From Ferrovibrio terrae (GTDB lineage Bacteria; Pseudomonadota; Alphaproteobacteria; Ferrovibrionales; Ferrovibrionaceae): a DNA stretch of 64,000 nucleotides. A program made the position numbers and the translations under genes. Position 1 is the stretch's first letter. Each line of letters starts with the position of its first letter. Of the stretch, positions 2,116-63,017 are shown piece after piece. Under the pieces are notes generated by a model. The model did no database searches. It saw nothing but the letters and a program-made list of their open reading frames with translations, and had not been told where the DNA came from. The stretch spans positions 3,880,001 to 3,944,000 of the forward strand of contig NZ_CP041636.1 in NCBI RefSeq assembly GCF_007197755.1. The letters are read 5' to 3'.

Positions 2116-2906
2116 ATCGCAACCGCCTCAGCTCCATCAACGTCGCCGCGCTGGCGCTCGGCCTCGGCTTCCTCTACCTGCCGATCCTGCTGGTGGTGGT
2201 GTTCTCCTTCAACGCTTCCAAGCTGGTCACCGTCTGGGGCGGTTTTTCGCTGCACTGGTATGGCGTGCTGTTTTCCAGCCCAGCCTATCTGGAAGCCGCG
2301 CTGCATTCGCTGCAGATCGGCGCAGCGGCGGCAACGCTGGCTACACTGGTCGGCACGCTGGGCGCACTGGCCTTCACCCGGCTCGGCCGCTTCCCCGGCC
2401 GGCAGGTATTTGCCGGCCTGATGCTGGCGCCGATGGTGCTGCCGGAAGTGATTCTCGGCGTTGCCACGCTTCTGTTATTTGTCTCACTCGATGTCGAACG
2501 CGGGCTGCTGACGGTGATGCTGACGCATGCCACCTTTGGCGCCGCCTTCGTGCTGGTGATCGTACAAGCCAAGCTGGTCGGCATGGACCCCGATCTCGAA
2601 GCCGCCGCGCGCGACCTCGGCGCCGGACCGGTGAAGGCCTTCCTGCTGGTGACGGTGCCGGCCCTGCTGCCCGCGCTGGTCGCCGGCTGGCTGCTGGCAT
2701 TTACGCTGTCGCTCGACGACGTGGTGCTGGCGTCCTTCGTCAACGGGCCTGGCGCGACCACATTGCCGGTGCGGGTCTACTCAGCCGTGCGGCTCGGCGT
2801 CTCGCCCGAGATCAACGCCATCTCCACCTTGCTGATCGCGCTGGTCAGCATCTTCGTGATCGCCGCCAGCCTGCTCTACAAGCGGACCATCGTCGACCGC
2901 CATTGA
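2112..2906 (+). CDS. ABC transporter permease, PotC-like
   Basis: Second channel subunit of the importer, 264 residues. ATG at 2112 overlaps the previous stop; a longer in-frame reading from 1989 would overlap the PotB-like gene heavily and is not needed. Six membrane segments are visible, starting with LALGLGFLYLPILLVVVFSF. The EAA-loop equivalent is DLEAAARDLGAGPVKAFLLV. The segment SLDDVVLASFVNGPG near residue 200 is a typical PotC/PotI feature. It ends the operon: the next gene is on the other strand and convergent. Confidence 0.9.
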   Translation: MNRNRLSSINVAALALGLGFLYLPILLVVVFSFNASKLVTVWGGFSLHWYGVLFSSPAYLEAALHSLQIGAAAATLATLVGTLGALAFTRLGRFPGRQVFAGLMLAPMVLPEVILGVATLLLFVSLDVERGLLTVMLTHATFGAAFVLVIVQAKLVGMDPDLEAAARDLGAGPVKAFLLVTVPALLPALVAGWLLAFTLSLDDVVLASFVNGPGATTLPVRVYSAVRLGVSPEINAISTLLIALVSIFVIAASLLYKRTIVDRH

Positions 2907-2967
2907 ACAGGGCGGGGTTCGGAACAGGTGCCGGCAGAGTCGCCTCCGCCGGCACATGGTATGGCTA

Positions 2968-3723
2968 TCAGATGGCCTGGCCACCTGAGACTTCGATCCG
3001 CTGCGCATTGATCCAGCGGTTGTCGTCGGACAGCAGGTTGGCGATCATCGGGCCGATATCGTCAGGCAGACCCACGCGGCCGAGCGCGGTCATCCCGGCC
3101 AGAACCTTGTTGATCTCCGGATTGTCGCGCACCGCGCCGCCGCCGAAATCGGTCTCGATGGCGCCCGGCGCGACGGTGTTGACGGCAATGCCGCGCGCAC
3201 CGAGTTCCTTGGCCATATAGGCGGTCAGCACCTCGACCGCGCCCTTCATCGCCGCATAGGCGGCATAGCCGGGATAAGCGAAGCGCGTCAGGCCCGAAGA
3301 CAGGTTGACGATGCGTCCGCCATCGGCGATCAGCGGCAGCAGCGTCTGCGTCAGGAAGTAGACGCCCTTGAGGTGAACGTTCATCAAACCATCGAACTGC
3401 GCCTCGGTGGTGTCGGCGAACAGGGCGTAATCGCCGTGGCCGGCATTGTTCACCAAGTGGTCGAACGTGTCGCGCGACCAGGTTTCGCGCAGCGTCTTGC
3501 GCAGTTGCGCGGCGAAGGGCGCAAAGGCCGCGACCTTGCCGCTGTCGAGCTGGAAGGCGACCGCCTTGCGACCCATCGCCTGGATTTCGGCGACCACAGC
3601 CTCGGCGTCGGCGCTGCGGCTCTGGTAGGTGAGGATCACGTCGCCGCCGCGGCGGGCGATGCTGAGGGCGGTGTTGCGGCCCAGACCGCGGCTGCCGCCG
3701 GTAACCAGGGTGATCTTGCTCAT
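2968..3723 (-). CDS. SDR-family NAD(P)-dependent oxidoreductase
   Basis: Classical short-chain dehydrogenase/reductase of 251 residues. The Rossmann motif TGGSRGLG is near residue 7, NNAGHGDY lies mid-protein and the active-site YAAYAAMK (YxxxK) near residue 157. The substrate is not predictable. The start MSKITLVTGG at 3723 is preceded by AGGAGACGACC; the reading frame stays open upstream without a better start. The gene is divergent from an AraC-type regulator, an arrangement often seen when the regulator controls the oxidoreductase. That regulatory link is inference. Confidence 0.88.
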   Translation of the reverse strand: MSKITLVTGGSRGLGRNTALSIARRGGDVILTYQSRSADAEAVVAEIQAMGRKAVAFQLDSGKVAAFAPFAAQLRKTLRETWSRDTFDHLVNNAGHGDYALFADTTEAQFDGLMNVHLKGVYFLTQTLLPLIADGGRIVNLSSGLTRFAYPGYAAYAAMKGAVEVLTAYMAKELGARGIAVNTVAPGAIETDFGGGAVRDNPEINKVLAGMTALGRVGLPDDIGPMIANLLSDDNRWINAQRIEVSGGQAI

Positions 3724-3867
3724 GGTCGTCTCCTGTCCTGAGGGGGGCTTGGAACAGGGCTGAATATCGCGCCGGAAAATCGCGCTTTGTTGCCGGATAC
3801 TCGGGGTTCTTTGCCTAATCCTCCAAAACCCCGTGCATGGCTGCTGGCACCGCGCTAGGCTTGCCGT

Positions 3868-58920: not shown

Positions 58921-59595
58921 GTGACGAAAATTCCATTGAGCATTGATCTTCTTTGCGTAGAAGCCGCGAATTTTTCAGTTATCGAAGCTAAGCATCCAGA
59001 ACCGAGTCTTTTTGGAGTTACAGACGGTAAGGCCGTAGGAACTTATCTTGAACATAAGTTTCGCGTTTTTCTTCAAGAGAGGTACGAGTTCGTCAAAGGG
59101 AACTCTGCGAACGGCGTGGACTTTCCCGACCTCGGCGTCGATATGAAAGTTACCAGTATTCGACAACCGCAGTCCTCATGTCCGTTTAAATCTGCAAGAC
59201 AGAAAATTTATGGTCTTGGTTATGGCCTTATTGTTTTTGTTTACGACAAGTTTGACGACCCTGTAAACAAGACCGCCATATTGCGCATGACCGACACCAT
59301 CTTTGTTGAACAGCAAAGAACTGCCGATTTCCAAATGACTAAGGGCATTCGGGGAATTCTCGAAAATGAAGGCAACACGGAAGACCTTATGGCTTTCATG
59401 TCCGAGAAGAACTTGCCGGTGGATGAAATAGAACTGAAAAATCTCGCAGACGAGATTTTAAAGAACAAGCCGGAGCAGGGTTATCTAACTATATCAAACG
59501 CCCTACAGTGGCGACTGCAGTATGGACGAGTGATTGAGAAGGCTGGCGAGCAAGCGGGAATTAGATCCATATATAAGGGCATTGAGCGCATATGA
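58921..59595 (+). CDS. Type II restriction endonuclease (PD-(D/E)xK-like)
   Basis: 224 residues from GTG 58921, AT-rich compared with purN. A nuclease-like core is visible: GTYLEHKFRVFLQERYEF, then NGVDFPDLGVDMKVTSI, where Asp70 and Asp74-x-Lys76 fit a PD-DxK site. QPQSSCPFKSARQKIYGLGY and LIVFVYDKFDD follow. No HNH or GIY-YIG motif. The assignment as the restriction enzyme rests on this plus a four-base overlap with an adenine methyltransferase gene. Recognition sequence unknown. No controller (C) protein gene is seen. Confidence 0.75.
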   Translation: MTKIPLSIDLLCVEAANFSVIEAKHPEPSLFGVTDGKAVGTYLEHKFRVFLQERYEFVKGNSANGVDFPDLGVDMKVTSIRQPQSSCPFKSARQKIYGLGYGLIVFVYDKFDDPVNKTAILRMTDTIFVEQQRTADFQMTKGIRGILENEGNTEDLMAFMSEKNLPVDEIELKNLADEILKNKPEQGYLTISNALQWRLQYGRVIEKAGEQAGIRSIYKGIERI

Positions 59596-61064
59596 ATCCT
59601 GAGACCAATCGGCGCATAGAGTATGGCGACTTTCAGACGCCAGATGCGCTGGCTATCCAGGTGTGCACCAGACTAGCCGCGGATGGTGTGAGCCCTGATG
59701 TAGTTATCGAACCAACATGCGGATTGGGGGCTTTCGTCATTGCAGCTGCATCTAAATTTCCGGATGCGGCTCATATTTGCGGATACGAAATCAATCCTGA
59801 GTATTTACAGATTTTACGGGAAAGAATTTCCAACATTAAAGAGCCAACTAAATATTCAGTCCGCCAAGCCAATTTTTTTACACACGGTTGGCAATCTGAC
59901 TTAGACCAATTAACAGGCAGCATACTCGTTGTAGGGAATTTTCCTTGGGTAACTAATGCAGCTCAAGGCCTTATAGGCGGCAATAATCTGCCTGAAAAAT
60001 CAAACTTCCTGAACTTCTCTGGTTTCGATGCGATTAGCGGTAAAGCAAATTTTGATATTTCGGAATGGATGCTGATTGACGTTTTGCGTTGGTTAAAAGG
60101 GCGCCACGCGCATATCGCGATGCTAGTCAAGACTGCTGTGGCACGCAAAGTGATGGCCCACGCACAGCGCCGACAGGATTCAGTTAGTGACGCTTACATA
60201 ATTCAAATTGATGCAAAGAAGAACTTTGCCGCGTCGGTCGATGCTTGCCTTTTAGTAATCAACTTGGACCCCGAGAAAGACACCTGTTACGACTATACCG
60301 TATATCAAGACTTTAACGACAAAATTGGGCGCCGCGTTGGCACTCGACTCGGTATGGTTGTTCGCGACTTAGAGGCGTTTAATCGCCATTTGGATTGGCT
60401 CGGGACAAGCGACCAAAAATGGCGCTCCGGCATCAAGCATGATGCGTCATCGGTAATGGAGTTTATCCGCTCAGGAGGCCGATATAAAAACGGTCTCGGA
60501 GAAGAAGTATCATTAGAAGATCGTTTTCTATTTCCACTTCTTAAGGGCTCCGACGTAGGTAGCGATAAAACTTGGCGCGAGAAATATGTCCTCGTGACAC
60601 AGAGACACGTTGGCGAACAAACTAACTCGATCGAAACGCAAGCGCCCTTAACTTGGTCGTACTTAATCAAACATGCAAATTACCTTGATGGCCGGGGAAG
60701 CACGATATACAAAAAAAACCCGCGCTTTTCGATTTTTGGTATAGGCGATTATTCGTTCCGTCCTTGGCGAATAGCGATATGCGCTCTTTATAAATCACTA
60801 CGTTTTAGGTTAGTGGGGCCGATTGATGGCCGGCCGGTAATGTTTGATGACACCGTATATTATGTCTCGTTTGAAACTGAGGCCGAGGCGGTTGCTGCAT
60901 ATTCGAGCCTCAACTCAAAACCAATCAATGCTCTTCTAGAGTCTCTCATTTTCTGGGATGAGAAACGTCCGATAAAAACGAGCATTTTAAATTCTGTTCG
61001 TTGGTCACCAAGCACCAGTGTCGAACCTCTATTAAAGCTCACTCGCAGCTCTGCAGCGGAGTAA
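59592..61064 (+). CDS. N-6 adenine-specific DNA methyltransferase (Type II R-M)
   Basis: 490 residues, overlapping the endonuclease stop by four bases. Gamma-class motif order: YGDFQTP (11-17, motif X-like), SAM-binding VIEPTCGLGAFVIAA (motif I, 38-52) and the catalytic motif IV as GNFPWVTN (115-122), where Phe replaces the usual first Pro of NPPW. The remaining 300 residues are a target-recognition region. AT-rich: one 60-base line (59821-59880) counts only 20 G+C. Protects host DNA from the linked nuclease. Confidence 0.88.
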   Translation: MNPETNRRIEYGDFQTPDALAIQVCTRLAADGVSPDVVIEPTCGLGAFVIAAASKFPDAAHICGYEINPEYLQILRERISNIKEPTKYSVRQANFFTHGWQSDLDQLTGSILVVGNFPWVTNAAQGLIGGNNLPEKSNFLNFSGFDAISGKANFDISEWMLIDVLRWLKGRHAHIAMLVKTAVARKVMAHAQRRQDSVSDAYIIQIDAKKNFAASVDACLLVINLDPEKDTCYDYTVYQDFNDKIGRRVGTRLGMVVRDLEAFNRHLDWLGTSDQKWRSGIKHDASSVMEFIRSGGRYKNGLGEEVSLEDRFLFPLLKGSDVGSDKTWREKYVLVTQRHVGEQTNSIETQAPLTWSYLIKHANYLDGRGSTIYKKNPRFSIFGIGDYSFRPWRIAICALYKSLRFRLVGPIDGRPVMFDDTVYYVSFETEAEAVAAYSSLNSKPINALLESLIFWDEKRPIKTSILNSVRWSPSTSVEPLLKLTRSSAAE

Positions 61065-61170: not shown

Positions 61171-61932
61171 TTATTCCTCTGCCGGCCGATAGCCGTATCC
61201 CAGAACATCCGCTGCGCGCGGCGACAGGCGTGAGCGTTCATAGGCCAGCAGCCGCGTCGGGTTCTCGTGCGCCCAGCGCAGCGCGTCATGGCCGATCCAC
61301 AGACCGGATGAGGACGCGCCCGGCACCTGTGGCAACAGCTCGTAATCGGGATAGCGCACCAGCACTACCCGCGCGTTCGCAGTGAACCGCGCCAGCAGCC
61401 GCCACATCTGCCGCGCGAACCGCGCATGGCCTTGGTGATGCGGCGCCGTGTGGATCAGGATCTGTGCCTCGCGCAGACGCTCCGGCCCGCGCTCATCGGC
61501 CGGCAGCGGCGCCATCGGCCGGCCCAGCGTGATCTGCGGCCAGAACAGGCCTTCGCTGGCGACCTGCCAGCCCAGTTGCCGTTTCAGGATCAGCTCCGTC
61601 TCCGGACCGAAATGCATCTGCGTCGCAGCCTGCGGATCGCTCAGCCGCAGGCTGTGCTCCAGGCGCAGCTTCGGCGGCGCGGCGCGGGTCAATTCCGCGA
61701 GGCTCACGCTGCGGCTGTACAGCGCATCAGGGAACGCCTCCTGCAGCGCGGTGGTGAACCGCGTCCAGTCCAGCGGGCTGAGGCAGACCGACCGGCCCAG
61801 CACGCTGGGCCGCAGGTAGGGCTGCGCCTTCACGATCTCGGGCGACGCGATATCCCCTTTCGGCGTGACGCGGACAGCGGTGCCGGGAAAGCGAAAAGGA
61901 CGGGTCTGCTCAAGGACGGACTGCAGGCTCAT
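61171..61932 (-). CDS. Hypothetical protein of unknown family
   Basis: 253 residues, GC-rich like the chromosome but inside the accessory insert. No signal peptide, membrane segment or recognisable motif. Visible features: many Arg/Leu residues, a His cluster in ILIHTAPHHQGHARFAR near 165-180, and a C-terminal RLSPRAADVLGYGYRPAE. Proteins of this look occur as unannotated genes in alphaproteobacteria. It has its own promoter-like sequence with an overlapping palindrome upstream (61996-62026). No function assigned. Confidence 0.65.
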   Translation of the reverse strand: MSLQSVLEQTRPFRFPGTAVRVTPKGDIASPEIVKAQPYLRPSVLGRSVCLSPLDWTRFTTALQEAFPDALYSRSVSLAELTRAAPPKLRLEHSLRLSDPQAATQMHFGPETELILKRQLGWQVASEGLFWPQITLGRPMAPLPADERGPERLREAQILIHTAPHHQGHARFARQMWRLLARFTANARVVLVRYPDYELLPQVPGASSSGLWIGHDALRWAHENPTRLLAYERSRLSPRAADVLGYGYRPAEE

Positions 61933-61995
61933 GTCGCGCTCCGGGATGGCGGGCCACAGAATGAATGGACAGAATCACATAGACTTTAATCCTAT

Positions 61996-62026
61996 ATTTA
62001 TGTACCATAAATGTTCTGTTTGTCAA
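61996..62026 (-). promoter_or_regulatory. Leftward promoter with overlapping palindromic operator
   Basis: On the minus strand a perfect TTGACA (62021-62026) is followed after 18 bases by CATAAA (61997-62002, 4 of 6 to TATAAT). ATTTATG TAC CATAAAT (61996-62012), a perfect inverted repeat with 7-base arms, covers the -10 element. This would drive the hypothetical gene starting at 61932 under repression. The repressor is unknown. Confidence 0.55.
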
Positions 62027-62095
62027 TCGGCAATCTGGCAAGGTGGACGGAACGGATGCGTCGCATACAGGTGCATTCACTGTGGCCCCACAGCC

Positions 62096-62231
62096 CGAAC
62101 CGCCACGAACGCGTACGAACCGCCACGAACGCGTACGAACCGCCGCGAACACGCACGAACTCCGGCGAACCCAAACGAGCATCAAACGAACCGCCACGAA
62201 CGCCAGCGAACACCACCGAAGCAAAACGAGG
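62096..62231. repeat. Phased array of CGAAC pentamers, 10-base period
   Basis: CGAAC occurs at 62096, 62106, 62116, 62126, 62136, 62146, 62156 and 62166, then a CGAGC at 62176, then CGAAC at 62187, 62197 and 62207, then CGAAG at 62217 and CGAGG at 62227. Early copies also form a 20-base unit CGCCACGAACGCGTACGAAC. Eleven exact and three near copies, with a single one-base slip. On the other strand the motif is GTTCG. Confidence 0.85.
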
Positions 62232-62237
62232 TCGATT

Positions 62238-62254
62238 TGATATCAGTGATATCA
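62238..62254. promoter_or_regulatory. Doubled palindromic octamer
   Basis: TGATATCA-G-TGATATCA: two copies of a self-complementary octamer around one base. CAGTGATATCACTG within it (62244-62257) is a perfect 14-base palindrome. It lies just after the CGAAC array and looks like a binding site; the protein is unknown. Confidence 0.45.
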
Positions 62255-62402
62255 CTGCCGCCGCTGCTCCGTCCGTCACCCTCGGCCCGAGCCAATATGC
62301 ACCGGCCGATGCGCGGAGGGTTGGGATGGATCCTCGGCGCAAGGCGGAGGATGACGATCTCTGGTGTGGCTGGAGCAGCCGCCTCAGCGGCAGGTCACAA
62401 AC

Positions 62403-62431
62403 AAAAAAAGGCCCGGCAGTGCTGCCGGGCC
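62403..62431 (-). terminator. Rho-independent terminator of ndk
   Basis: GGCCCGGCAG (62410-62419) pairs perfectly with CTGCCGGGCC (62422-62431) over a two-base core, followed leftward by seven T (seven A at 62403-62409). It lies 31 bases after the ndk stop. Confidence 0.92.
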
Positions 62432-62462
62432 TTCGCTCAGTCCGGAGACTGAAAAGATGTCT

Positions 62463-62885
62463 TTAGCCGACGATCTCGGTGCCGGCGAAGAAGTAGGCGA
62501 TTTCCACCGCAGCCGTTTCGGCGGCGTCCGAGCCGTGTACCGAGTTGGCTTCGATGCTCTCGGCGAAATCCTTGCGGATGGTGCCGGCGGCGGCATTGGC
62601 CGGGTTGGTCGCGCCCATCACGTCGCGGTACTTGGCAATGGCGCCTTCGCCTTCCAGCACCTGCACGACGACCGGGCCCGAGATCATGAACGACACTAGG
62701 TCGTTGAAGAACGGACGGGCGCTGTGCACGCCGTAGAAGCTCTCGGCCTGGGCCTTGCTCATGTGGATGCGCTTCTGCGCCACGATGCGCAGGCCGGCGG
62801 CCTCGATCTTGGCATTGATCGCGCCAGTCAGGTTGCGGCGGGTCGCGTCCGGCTTGATGATCGAGAAAGTGCGTTCAATCGCCAT
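62463..62885 (-). CDS. ndk: Nucleoside diphosphate kinase
   Basis: 140 residues. Balances nucleoside triphosphates by phosphotransfer through a phospho-His. Family features: [20 protein letters not shown] at the N-terminus, [20 protein letters not shown], and the active-site His in [16 protein letters not shown] 62885 is chosen: AAAGGA lies nine bases upstream; an in-frame ATG two codons earlier is too close to it. Divergent from the ABC-F gene. Confidence 0.97.
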
Positions 62886-63017
62886 GATCATGGGTCCTTT
62901 AGGTCTTGGCTAAAAATCGGTGGCGGGTATATAGAGGCTCCGCCGAGGACCTGCAACCGTCCCGGCCCTCCCAAACCCCGCCAGCCCTCCCCGGCCAGCC
63001 AAGTTAAGTTGTTCTGA

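Follow-up and report, generated by a model that had tools for sequence, protein, structure and literature searches.

Dozens of Ferrovibrio loci pair a LexA-type promoter box with helically phased repeat arrays, suggesting a protein-binding platform

The source genome of Ferrovibrio terrae (labelled G000 here) consists of one contig of 4.26 Mb, of which we analyzed bases 3,880,001-3,944,000, a 64-kb stretch referred to as the window and numbered from its first base. The gene order at the locus studied is purN, a type II restriction endonuclease and methyltransferase pair (58921-61064), a divergent gene for a 253-aa protein (61171-61932, minus strand), a LexA-type box followed by a repeat array, and, beyond the array, ndk, which encodes nucleoside-diphosphate kinase (62463-62891, minus strand). 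The 253-aa protein has no Pfam or NCBIfam match, and its gene could share the LexA-type promoter region; a similar protein is encoded near the array of locus L041. The box, GTACcataaatGTTC (62002-62016, plus strand), differs from GTTC-N7-GTTC by one mismatch and reads towards the array. It has no TTG at the usual -35 place, so that the putative promoter of the window lacks a clear -35 element. The leader between box and array contains an imperfect inverted repeat, GCATAC-AGGT-GCATTC (62063-62078), and directly after the array the sequence reads as another inverted repeat, TGATATCAGTGATATCA (62238-62254); the L041 array and the ndk-locus array of genome G005 (L129) are followed by similar sequences. 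At gathering score, Rfam had no match in window positions 61900-62500.

The initial annotation had placed the array in an accessory insert, and this description fits the window copy, where the restriction-modification pair lies between purN and the array. The genes purN and ndk adjoin each other in genomes G009 and G004 and are apart in the window genome. Arrays also lie beside ndk in G002, G003, G005 and G008. The alternative of replication iterons, also raised in the initial annotation, found no support, as the window array is flanked by ndk and a gene of no known family, with no replication gene at its borders, and similar arrays occupy at least 22 chromosomal places. Neither terminal repeats nor a transposase gene were seen at the window copy. 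As separate observations, at the ndk locus of G003 (L132) the box and ATAAG array are accompanied by two small genes (192-864) that by eye look like a toxin-antitoxin pair, and at L041 a gene for a 475-aa protein with a peptidoglycan-binding domain (approximately 2412-3840, minus strand) adjoins the box and array, similar proteins being encoded close to L032 and, in G008, at the ndk locus (L130).

The array itself (62096-62231, plus strand) comprises 14 CGAAC-type pentamers, a composition that re-reading of the positions confirmed. Eleven units are exact (starting at 62096, 62106, 62116, 62126, 62136, 62146, 62156, 62166, 62187, 62197 and 62207) and three are one-base variants (CGAGC at 62176, CGAAG at 62217 and CGAGG at 62227); all steps are of 10 bp except for a sole 11-bp step from 62176 to 62187. 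Tandem Repeats Finder gave two rows on the array, 62096-62160 and 62096-62170, with periods of 10 and 20. The pattern CGAAC-N5-CGAAC was matched nine times in the 64-kb window, every time inside the array, compared with an expectation of 0.21 and a maximum of 2 in 100 dinucleotide shuffles of the window. The proposal that the motifs face the same side of the helix over 13 turns would hold locally and fail over the full length of relaxed DNA, because steps of 10.0 bp against the 10.5 bp of B-DNA add up to a drift of about half a turn over 13 steps; same-side phasing of the entire array would require wrapped or overtwisted DNA. A coding repeat was rightly dismissed, since each 10-bp step changes the reading frame; moreover, spacers in G008, such as CTGAA, contain TGA by inspection. 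The array is likewise too short in its units for CRISPR, with a 5-base motif and 5-base spacers as opposed to repeats of approximately 20-40 bp with unique spacers, and the spacers of the G000 arrays are drawn from a small vocabulary (55 distinct among 188).

To define the extent of the family, we searched the whole genome with a four-unit CGAAC pattern, which gave 55 matches (26 + 29), compared with 0 for the pattern read backwards. Among the matches listed, a five-unit pattern allowing up to 3 mismatches (173 matches in total), together with a pattern of seven CGAA units (93 matches), resolved at least 22 separate arrays on both strands of the G000 chromosome, again against a control of 0. 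Gene orientation was scored at 20 of 21 G000 loci, leaving out L031, whose array overlaps a weak ORF: the array has divergent genes on its two sides in 10, tandem genes in 8 and convergent genes in 2. The strands of the 22 arrays are mixed (10 plus, 12 minus), which speaks weakly against direction-dependent replication sites.

Four-unit CGAAC arrays were detected in 5 of 10 Ferrovibrio genomes (G000, G001, G002, G005 and G008) and in none of 31 others. In a sample of 385 genomes of the class, two matched, both Ferrovibrio, and two further Ferrovibrio genomes in the sample had no match. Similar arrays are thus present in relatives, so that their absence from every relative, part of the refuting outcome named in the initial annotation, is itself refuted. 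Wider scans yielded at least 119 stretches in genome contigs (four-unit pattern) and 85 in viral contigs. When the 201 strand rows with at least 4 phased units were ranked by the number of different spacers, only L206, L217 and L212 among the best 45 combined six or more units with five or more different spacers and had a box no farther than 250 bp away; all three are Ferrovibrio-type contigs, L217 being named only as an alphaproteobacterium and equal to a G001 contig. Elsewhere there are sporadic CGAAC arrays that have no box (e.g., L271, L318, L332 and L346).

The arrays are paired with a partner that the initial annotation overlooked. With a LexA-type box defined as GTTC-N7-GTTC with at most one mismatch, 30 of the 41 CGAAC arrays of the five genomes have a same-strand box 15-230 bp upstream (17/22 in G000, 4/5 in G001, 2/2 in G002, 1/2 in G005 and 6/10 in G008), and 33 of 41 have one in either orientation in that interval; within 230 bp downstream there is none (0/41). 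The control, 10,096 random positions in the same loci, gave a box in 1.05%, so that the rate at the arrays is approximately 70 times that of the control. A same-strand box is missing from 11 of the 41 arrays and a box of any orientation from eight (L029, L031, L048, L052, L057, L058, L061 and L065), of which L057 has a perfect box at -262, outside the 15-230 bp range. When an A/T-rich box with at most one mismatch was sought up to 400 bp upstream in either orientation, it was present at 19 of the first 21 G000 arrays. The remark that LexA does not fit the array is correct for the array itself, in which the half-sites are spaced by N6 and not N7, and does not extend to its surroundings, where the N7 box with one mismatch lies upstream at 62002-62016. 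The unit is composite: a LexA-type box pointing into a helically phased array, and, as shown below, conserved by place.

Several features of the box suggest a promoter. The box overlaps a -10-like element, and T is the final base of the core in 64 of 66 non-redundant array-linked boxes, which had been selected for A/T-rich cores. TTG occurs at -19 to -14 in 34 of the 66, compared with a mean of 2.9 and a maximum of 11 in control windows. From the last-base T and the placement of TTG, any promoter at the box would be directed towards the array. The inverted-repeat motif found in the window leader at 62063-62078 recurs in 11 of the 66 leaders (shuffled mean 0.07, maximum 1). In a mixed sample of 129 boxes, partly selected by arrays, an array lies downstream on the same strand in 53 cases, upstream on the same strand in 1 and upstream on the opposite strand in 13. 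Judging from these positions, the loci carry what looks like a LexA-controlled, sigma-70-like candidate promoter directed into the array.

The array-linked box can be equated with the LexA-type box of the genus, because the same box precedes lexA: all nine lexA loci (there was no lexA match in G005) have a perfect GAAC-N7-GAAC about 105-150 bp upstream. Of nine recA loci, five have CAAC-N7-GAAC with one mismatch, one (G006) has a perfect box and three have none at that setting. The alphaproteobacterial LexA motif given for Caulobacter in two studies is likewise GTTC-N7-GTTC (PMC12700426, PMC6237742). The known boxes serve genes, whereas the Ferrovibrio boxes face repeat arrays; in Caulobacter, damage-induced small RNAs were reported to have no SOS box nearby (PMC6237742). 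Perfect boxes of the form GTTC-N3-WWW-N-GTTC number 15 in G000, 13 in G001, 17 in G002, 13 in G005 and 10 in G008, against controls of 0, 2, 3, 4 and 5, respectively, and the five Ferrovibrio genomes without CGAAC arrays show no excess (3-6 perfect boxes, control 2-6). Reading by eye all 17 perfect boxes of G002, we found that 11 are followed by an array (L136, L138, L140, L141, L142, L143, L144, L146, L147, L150 and L152) and 6 are not (L137, L139, L145, L148, L149 and L151). Separately, a CRISPR-like array with a repeat of approximately 36 bp and different spacers was seen in G006 (L085) after recA, where G000 has a CGAAC array.

The position downstream of the box is also occupied by arrays of further motifs, namely ATAAG, CGATA, ACWGG, TTGGC and a 21-bp class, GACCTGACTCAG (GACCTGA). 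In G000, CGAAC units follow each other in 10-bp steps (n = 205; overlapping matches split a further 4 steps into 4+6, and the 11-bp step of the window is outside this count, the unit there being CGAGC). The ratio of 10-bp to 11-bp steps between ATAAG units is 30:63 in G002, 14:27 in G001 and 47:1 in G003, TTGGC steps are 10 bp in 8 of 8 cases and ACWGG steps in 8 of 10, and GACCTGA steps are 21 bp in 19 of 21 cases in G001 and in 2 of 2 in G000. That motif classes without resemblance to each other keep steps of 10, 10/11 or 21 bp suggests a relation to the DNA helix. The mean step, 10.0 bp for CGAAC and approximately 10.7 bp for ATAAG in G002 and G001, nevertheless differs between classes, so that not every class holds a single helical face along its long arrays.

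ATAAG triples occur in 8 of 18 genomes of the family, one of which (G010) belongs to another genus, with 230 matches against 9 for the reversed pattern; they are strongest in G002, G001, G003 and G005, and single genomes with few matches are weak cases, as in G000 (9 versus 2 reversed) and G008 (1 versus 0). The GACCTGA pattern has 52 matches against 2 in the control, 42 of them in G001, and several of the ten others are located in what may be coding sequence. When 39 ATAAG arrays were collected by the array and not by the box, 16 had a same-strand box within 400 bp upstream (9/19 in G002, 3/7 in G003, 1/2 in G009, 1/6 in G010 and 2/5 in G001). In G002 (L437) and G001 (L455), an ATAAG array runs in frame through a linker-like part of a gene. 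T-runs follow four of the six G010 arrays, which look different from the rest: at L448, L449, L450 and L452, short ATAAG arrays are followed, approximately 60 bp on, by a ATCAACGGCTTG-like sequence ending in a T-run.

To assess conservation by place, we compared 83 syntenic box pairs, that is, boxes of different genomes at matching places between similar flanks. The 7-base cores of these pairs agree at 5.31 of 7 positions on average, with 23 identical, compared with 3.02 of 7 and 35 identical among 5261 other pairs. An array accompanies both members in 43 of the 83 pairs, one member in 13 and neither in 27, as scored by an automatic recogniser; some arrays visible by eye escape it, the GACCTGA array of L194 among them. 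Of the 43 pairs with arrays on both sides, 32 have the same class and 11 a different one, the classes involved in switching being CGAAC, ATAAG, the 21-bp GACCTGA, ACWGG and TTGGC. At cmk, for example, G000 has CGAAC, G002 ACWGG and G005 TTGGC; at purB, G000 has CGAAC, and G001 and G002 have ATAAG; at lepA, G000 and G001 have ATAAG and G005 has CGAAC. At mnmA, G000 carries CGAAC together with GACCTGA, G002 carries ATAAG, and G001 carries GACCTGA with two CGAAC units left. In the recA-alaS interval, CGAAC in G000 corresponds to TTGGC in G005 and to no array in G008, and ATAAG precedes alaS in G002. By sequence comparison, the box stays with its place, and the array class appears to change in about a quarter of the pairs, as a minority and not the rule. 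A box that is kept next to an array class that sometimes changes (11/43) is the pattern expected if a binder and its sites evolve together.

Within the arrays, motifs are more constant than spacers. Two array pairs compared between G003 and G009 show no difference at 85 motif positions and six differences at 75 spacer positions. Nearly all G000 spacers (187 of 188) end in A or G, and 4 begin with T. Neighbouring spacers are less alike than shuffled ones in G000 (z -4.57) and more alike in G008 at lag 1 (z 3.07) and in G001 at lag 3 (z 3.06). As to local grammar, CGAAG replaces CGAAC in G000 mostly after spacers such as ACCAG (6/8) and ACTGG (4/5), and is then followed by C in 35 of 36 listed cases. 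Stems such as CTGGCG-AAG-CGCCA are visible in some G000 arrays; however, complementarity between adjacent spacers is at chance level (z 0.31 in G000) and folding energies are ordinary relative to spacer-permuted arrays (z -1.05 in G000, 1.91 in G008 and 1.31 in G002), and RNA hairpins were therefore rejected. In 18 other loci, Rfam identified tRNAs only. By-eye comparison with the consensus sequences for Rho utilisation and elemental pausing suggested that such sites may suit some classes, but not the purine-rich ATAAG arrays of G003.

Among known repeat systems, REP, BIME and ERIC are inverted-repeat interspersed elements. They resemble the Ferrovibrio arrays in having many intergenic copies per genome, whereas the arrays are directional, phased and paired with a promoter. 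The iterons of plasmid replication are phased direct repeats as well, but no initiator gene adjoins the window copy. In parC of type II plasmid partition (ParR/ParM), tandem iterons of approximately 10 bp form arrays at a promoter, each ParR dimer sits on one iteron and the DNA wraps the ParR super-helix (PMC5016525). The Ferrovibrio arrays share the tandem iterons of about 10-11 bp; they differ in that no parM or parR adjoins the window copy, that at least 22 copies are present on the chromosome instead of one, and that there are several motif classes. The E. coli gyrase motif, in turn, spans 130 bp, with arms of GC content periodic at 10.75 bp (PMC6379681). The Ferrovibrio arrays show a periodic part; fixed pentamers, CGAAC steps of 10.0 bp and, by eye, the absence of a central unphased part set the arrays apart. 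Under the interpretation given below, the closest functional parallels would be a parC centromere and the gyrase-motif arms. We file the arrays under neither, because the window has no par genes and the arrays, by eye, have no gyrase centre.

We consider it possible, with a probability of about 45%, that the composite unit serves class-specific proteins as a helically phased DNA platform gated by LexA. Each locus would have two parts: a LexA-controlled, sigma-70-like promoter, recognised by its sequence, and, mostly 15-230 bp downstream on the same strand, a short directional motif repeated about 4 to 18 times at intervals of one or two helical turns. A class-specific DNA-binding protein would assemble cooperatively on the array or wrap the DNA. 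As long as LexA is bound, the promoter would be silent and the platform would stay occupied; upon DNA damage, LexA would be cleaved, and RNA polymerase would cross the platform and clear or remodel it, with possible effects on neighbouring genes or the nucleoid. The pairing of box and array, their orientation, the step lengths, the conservation of the box core by place and the constancy of motifs relative to spacers speak for this reading, and the in-frame ATAAG array within a gene of two species makes a non-coding RNA improbable there; the array is most likely a DNA element. Against it stand the CGAAC arrays with no same-strand box in range (11/41) or no box in either orientation (8/41), the small share of ATAAG arrays with a box within 400 bp (16/39), the minority status of class changes, the different mean steps of the classes and the unclear -35 of the window copy. 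The co-operative protein-binding platform suggested in the initial annotation stays the best candidate reading. A bolder version, which we regard as improbable, is damage-gated chromosome organisation, in which dozens of centromere-like arrays, most of them under a LexA promoter, would be protein-bound in undamaged cells and cleared in the SOS response, their code being co-rewritten between sister species.

Other explanations have to be weighed against the DNA platform. The arrays might be part of SOS-induced non-coding RNAs or 5' leaders, with the repeats acting as RNA, for instance by sequestering a small RNA or an RNA-binding protein. Such transcripts would agree with a promoter aimed at the array in most cases and with the strand bias of the partly array-chosen box sample (53 of 129 downstream and 1 upstream on the same strand), but not with the ordinary folding energies, the lack of spacer complementarity beyond chance, an Rfam result of nothing at the window stretch and only tRNAs in 18 loci, the absence of an RNA sequence common to the classes and the array within coding sequence; we judge this explanation unlikely. 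Somewhat less probable still is that the arrays are shape-read wrapping sites, for example strong gyrase sites, at positions where SOS-promoter transcription pushes positive supercoils. A/T-rich steps every 10-11 bp over approximately 100 bp, downstream of promoters, would suit gyrase, whose E. coli motif is periodic and which binds well-phased sequences better (PMC6379681). A reader of shape would, however, not require entire arrays of one pentamer class, the central part without period is not seen in the arrays by eye, and the CGAAC step is 10.0 and not 10.75 bp.

We are more doubtful yet of an origin in a mobile or self-copying repeat family that lands beside LexA-type promoters, with the arrays as its parts or remnants. 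Many dispersed copies, a spacer vocabulary shared within each genome and the ndk place as an insertion spot, with purN and ndk adjoining in G009 and G004 and apart in the window and with other arrays beside ndk in four genomes, are what such a family would leave behind; yet the boxes are conserved by place between species, which disagrees with a unit that carries its own box along when it jumps, and the window copy showed no terminal repeats or transposase gene. Very improbable is that LexA itself binds the array through the GAAC half-site contained in each CGAAC unit, despite the LexA-type box nearby: the spacing is wrong (N6 in the array, N7 in the box), and the ATAAG, TTGGC, ACWGG and GACCTGA motifs contain neither GTTC nor GAAC. 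A decaying simple repeat, or chance, has next to no probability and is already contradicted by the results. Local duplication does occur, as seen from like neighbouring spacers in G008 (lag 1) and G001 (lag 3), but the reversed control pattern is absent from the source genome, neighbouring spacers in G000 are less alike than shuffled ones, motifs change less than spacers and boxes occur at approximately 70 times the control rate.

The open-access PMC literature contained nothing on LexA of Ferrovibrio, nor on a LexA or SOS box combined with intergenic helical tandem repeats in Alphaproteobacteria. By title and abstract, no paper on GTTCN7GTTC is about arrays; among the matches listed, papers on Ferrovibrio repeats concern ecology by title, those on decameric repeats human genes, and those on LexA and the helical turn are unrelated by title. 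On the strength of these searches of open-access papers, we call the composite unit undescribed. The known role of SOS promoters is to drive genes for repair and related functions; 17 of the 22 CGAAC arrays of G000 have a same-strand SOS-type box just upstream with no gene obviously served. The dozens of candidate promoter-array loci in Ferrovibrio, in which the putative promoter is kept and the motif is sometimes rewritten, suggest an undescribed protein-binding platform. The short, regular classes would offer a clean system for cooperative, phase-dependent DNA binding, and if the binder is found, one could test whether parts of the chromosome are reorganised or protected when bacteria start the SOS response.
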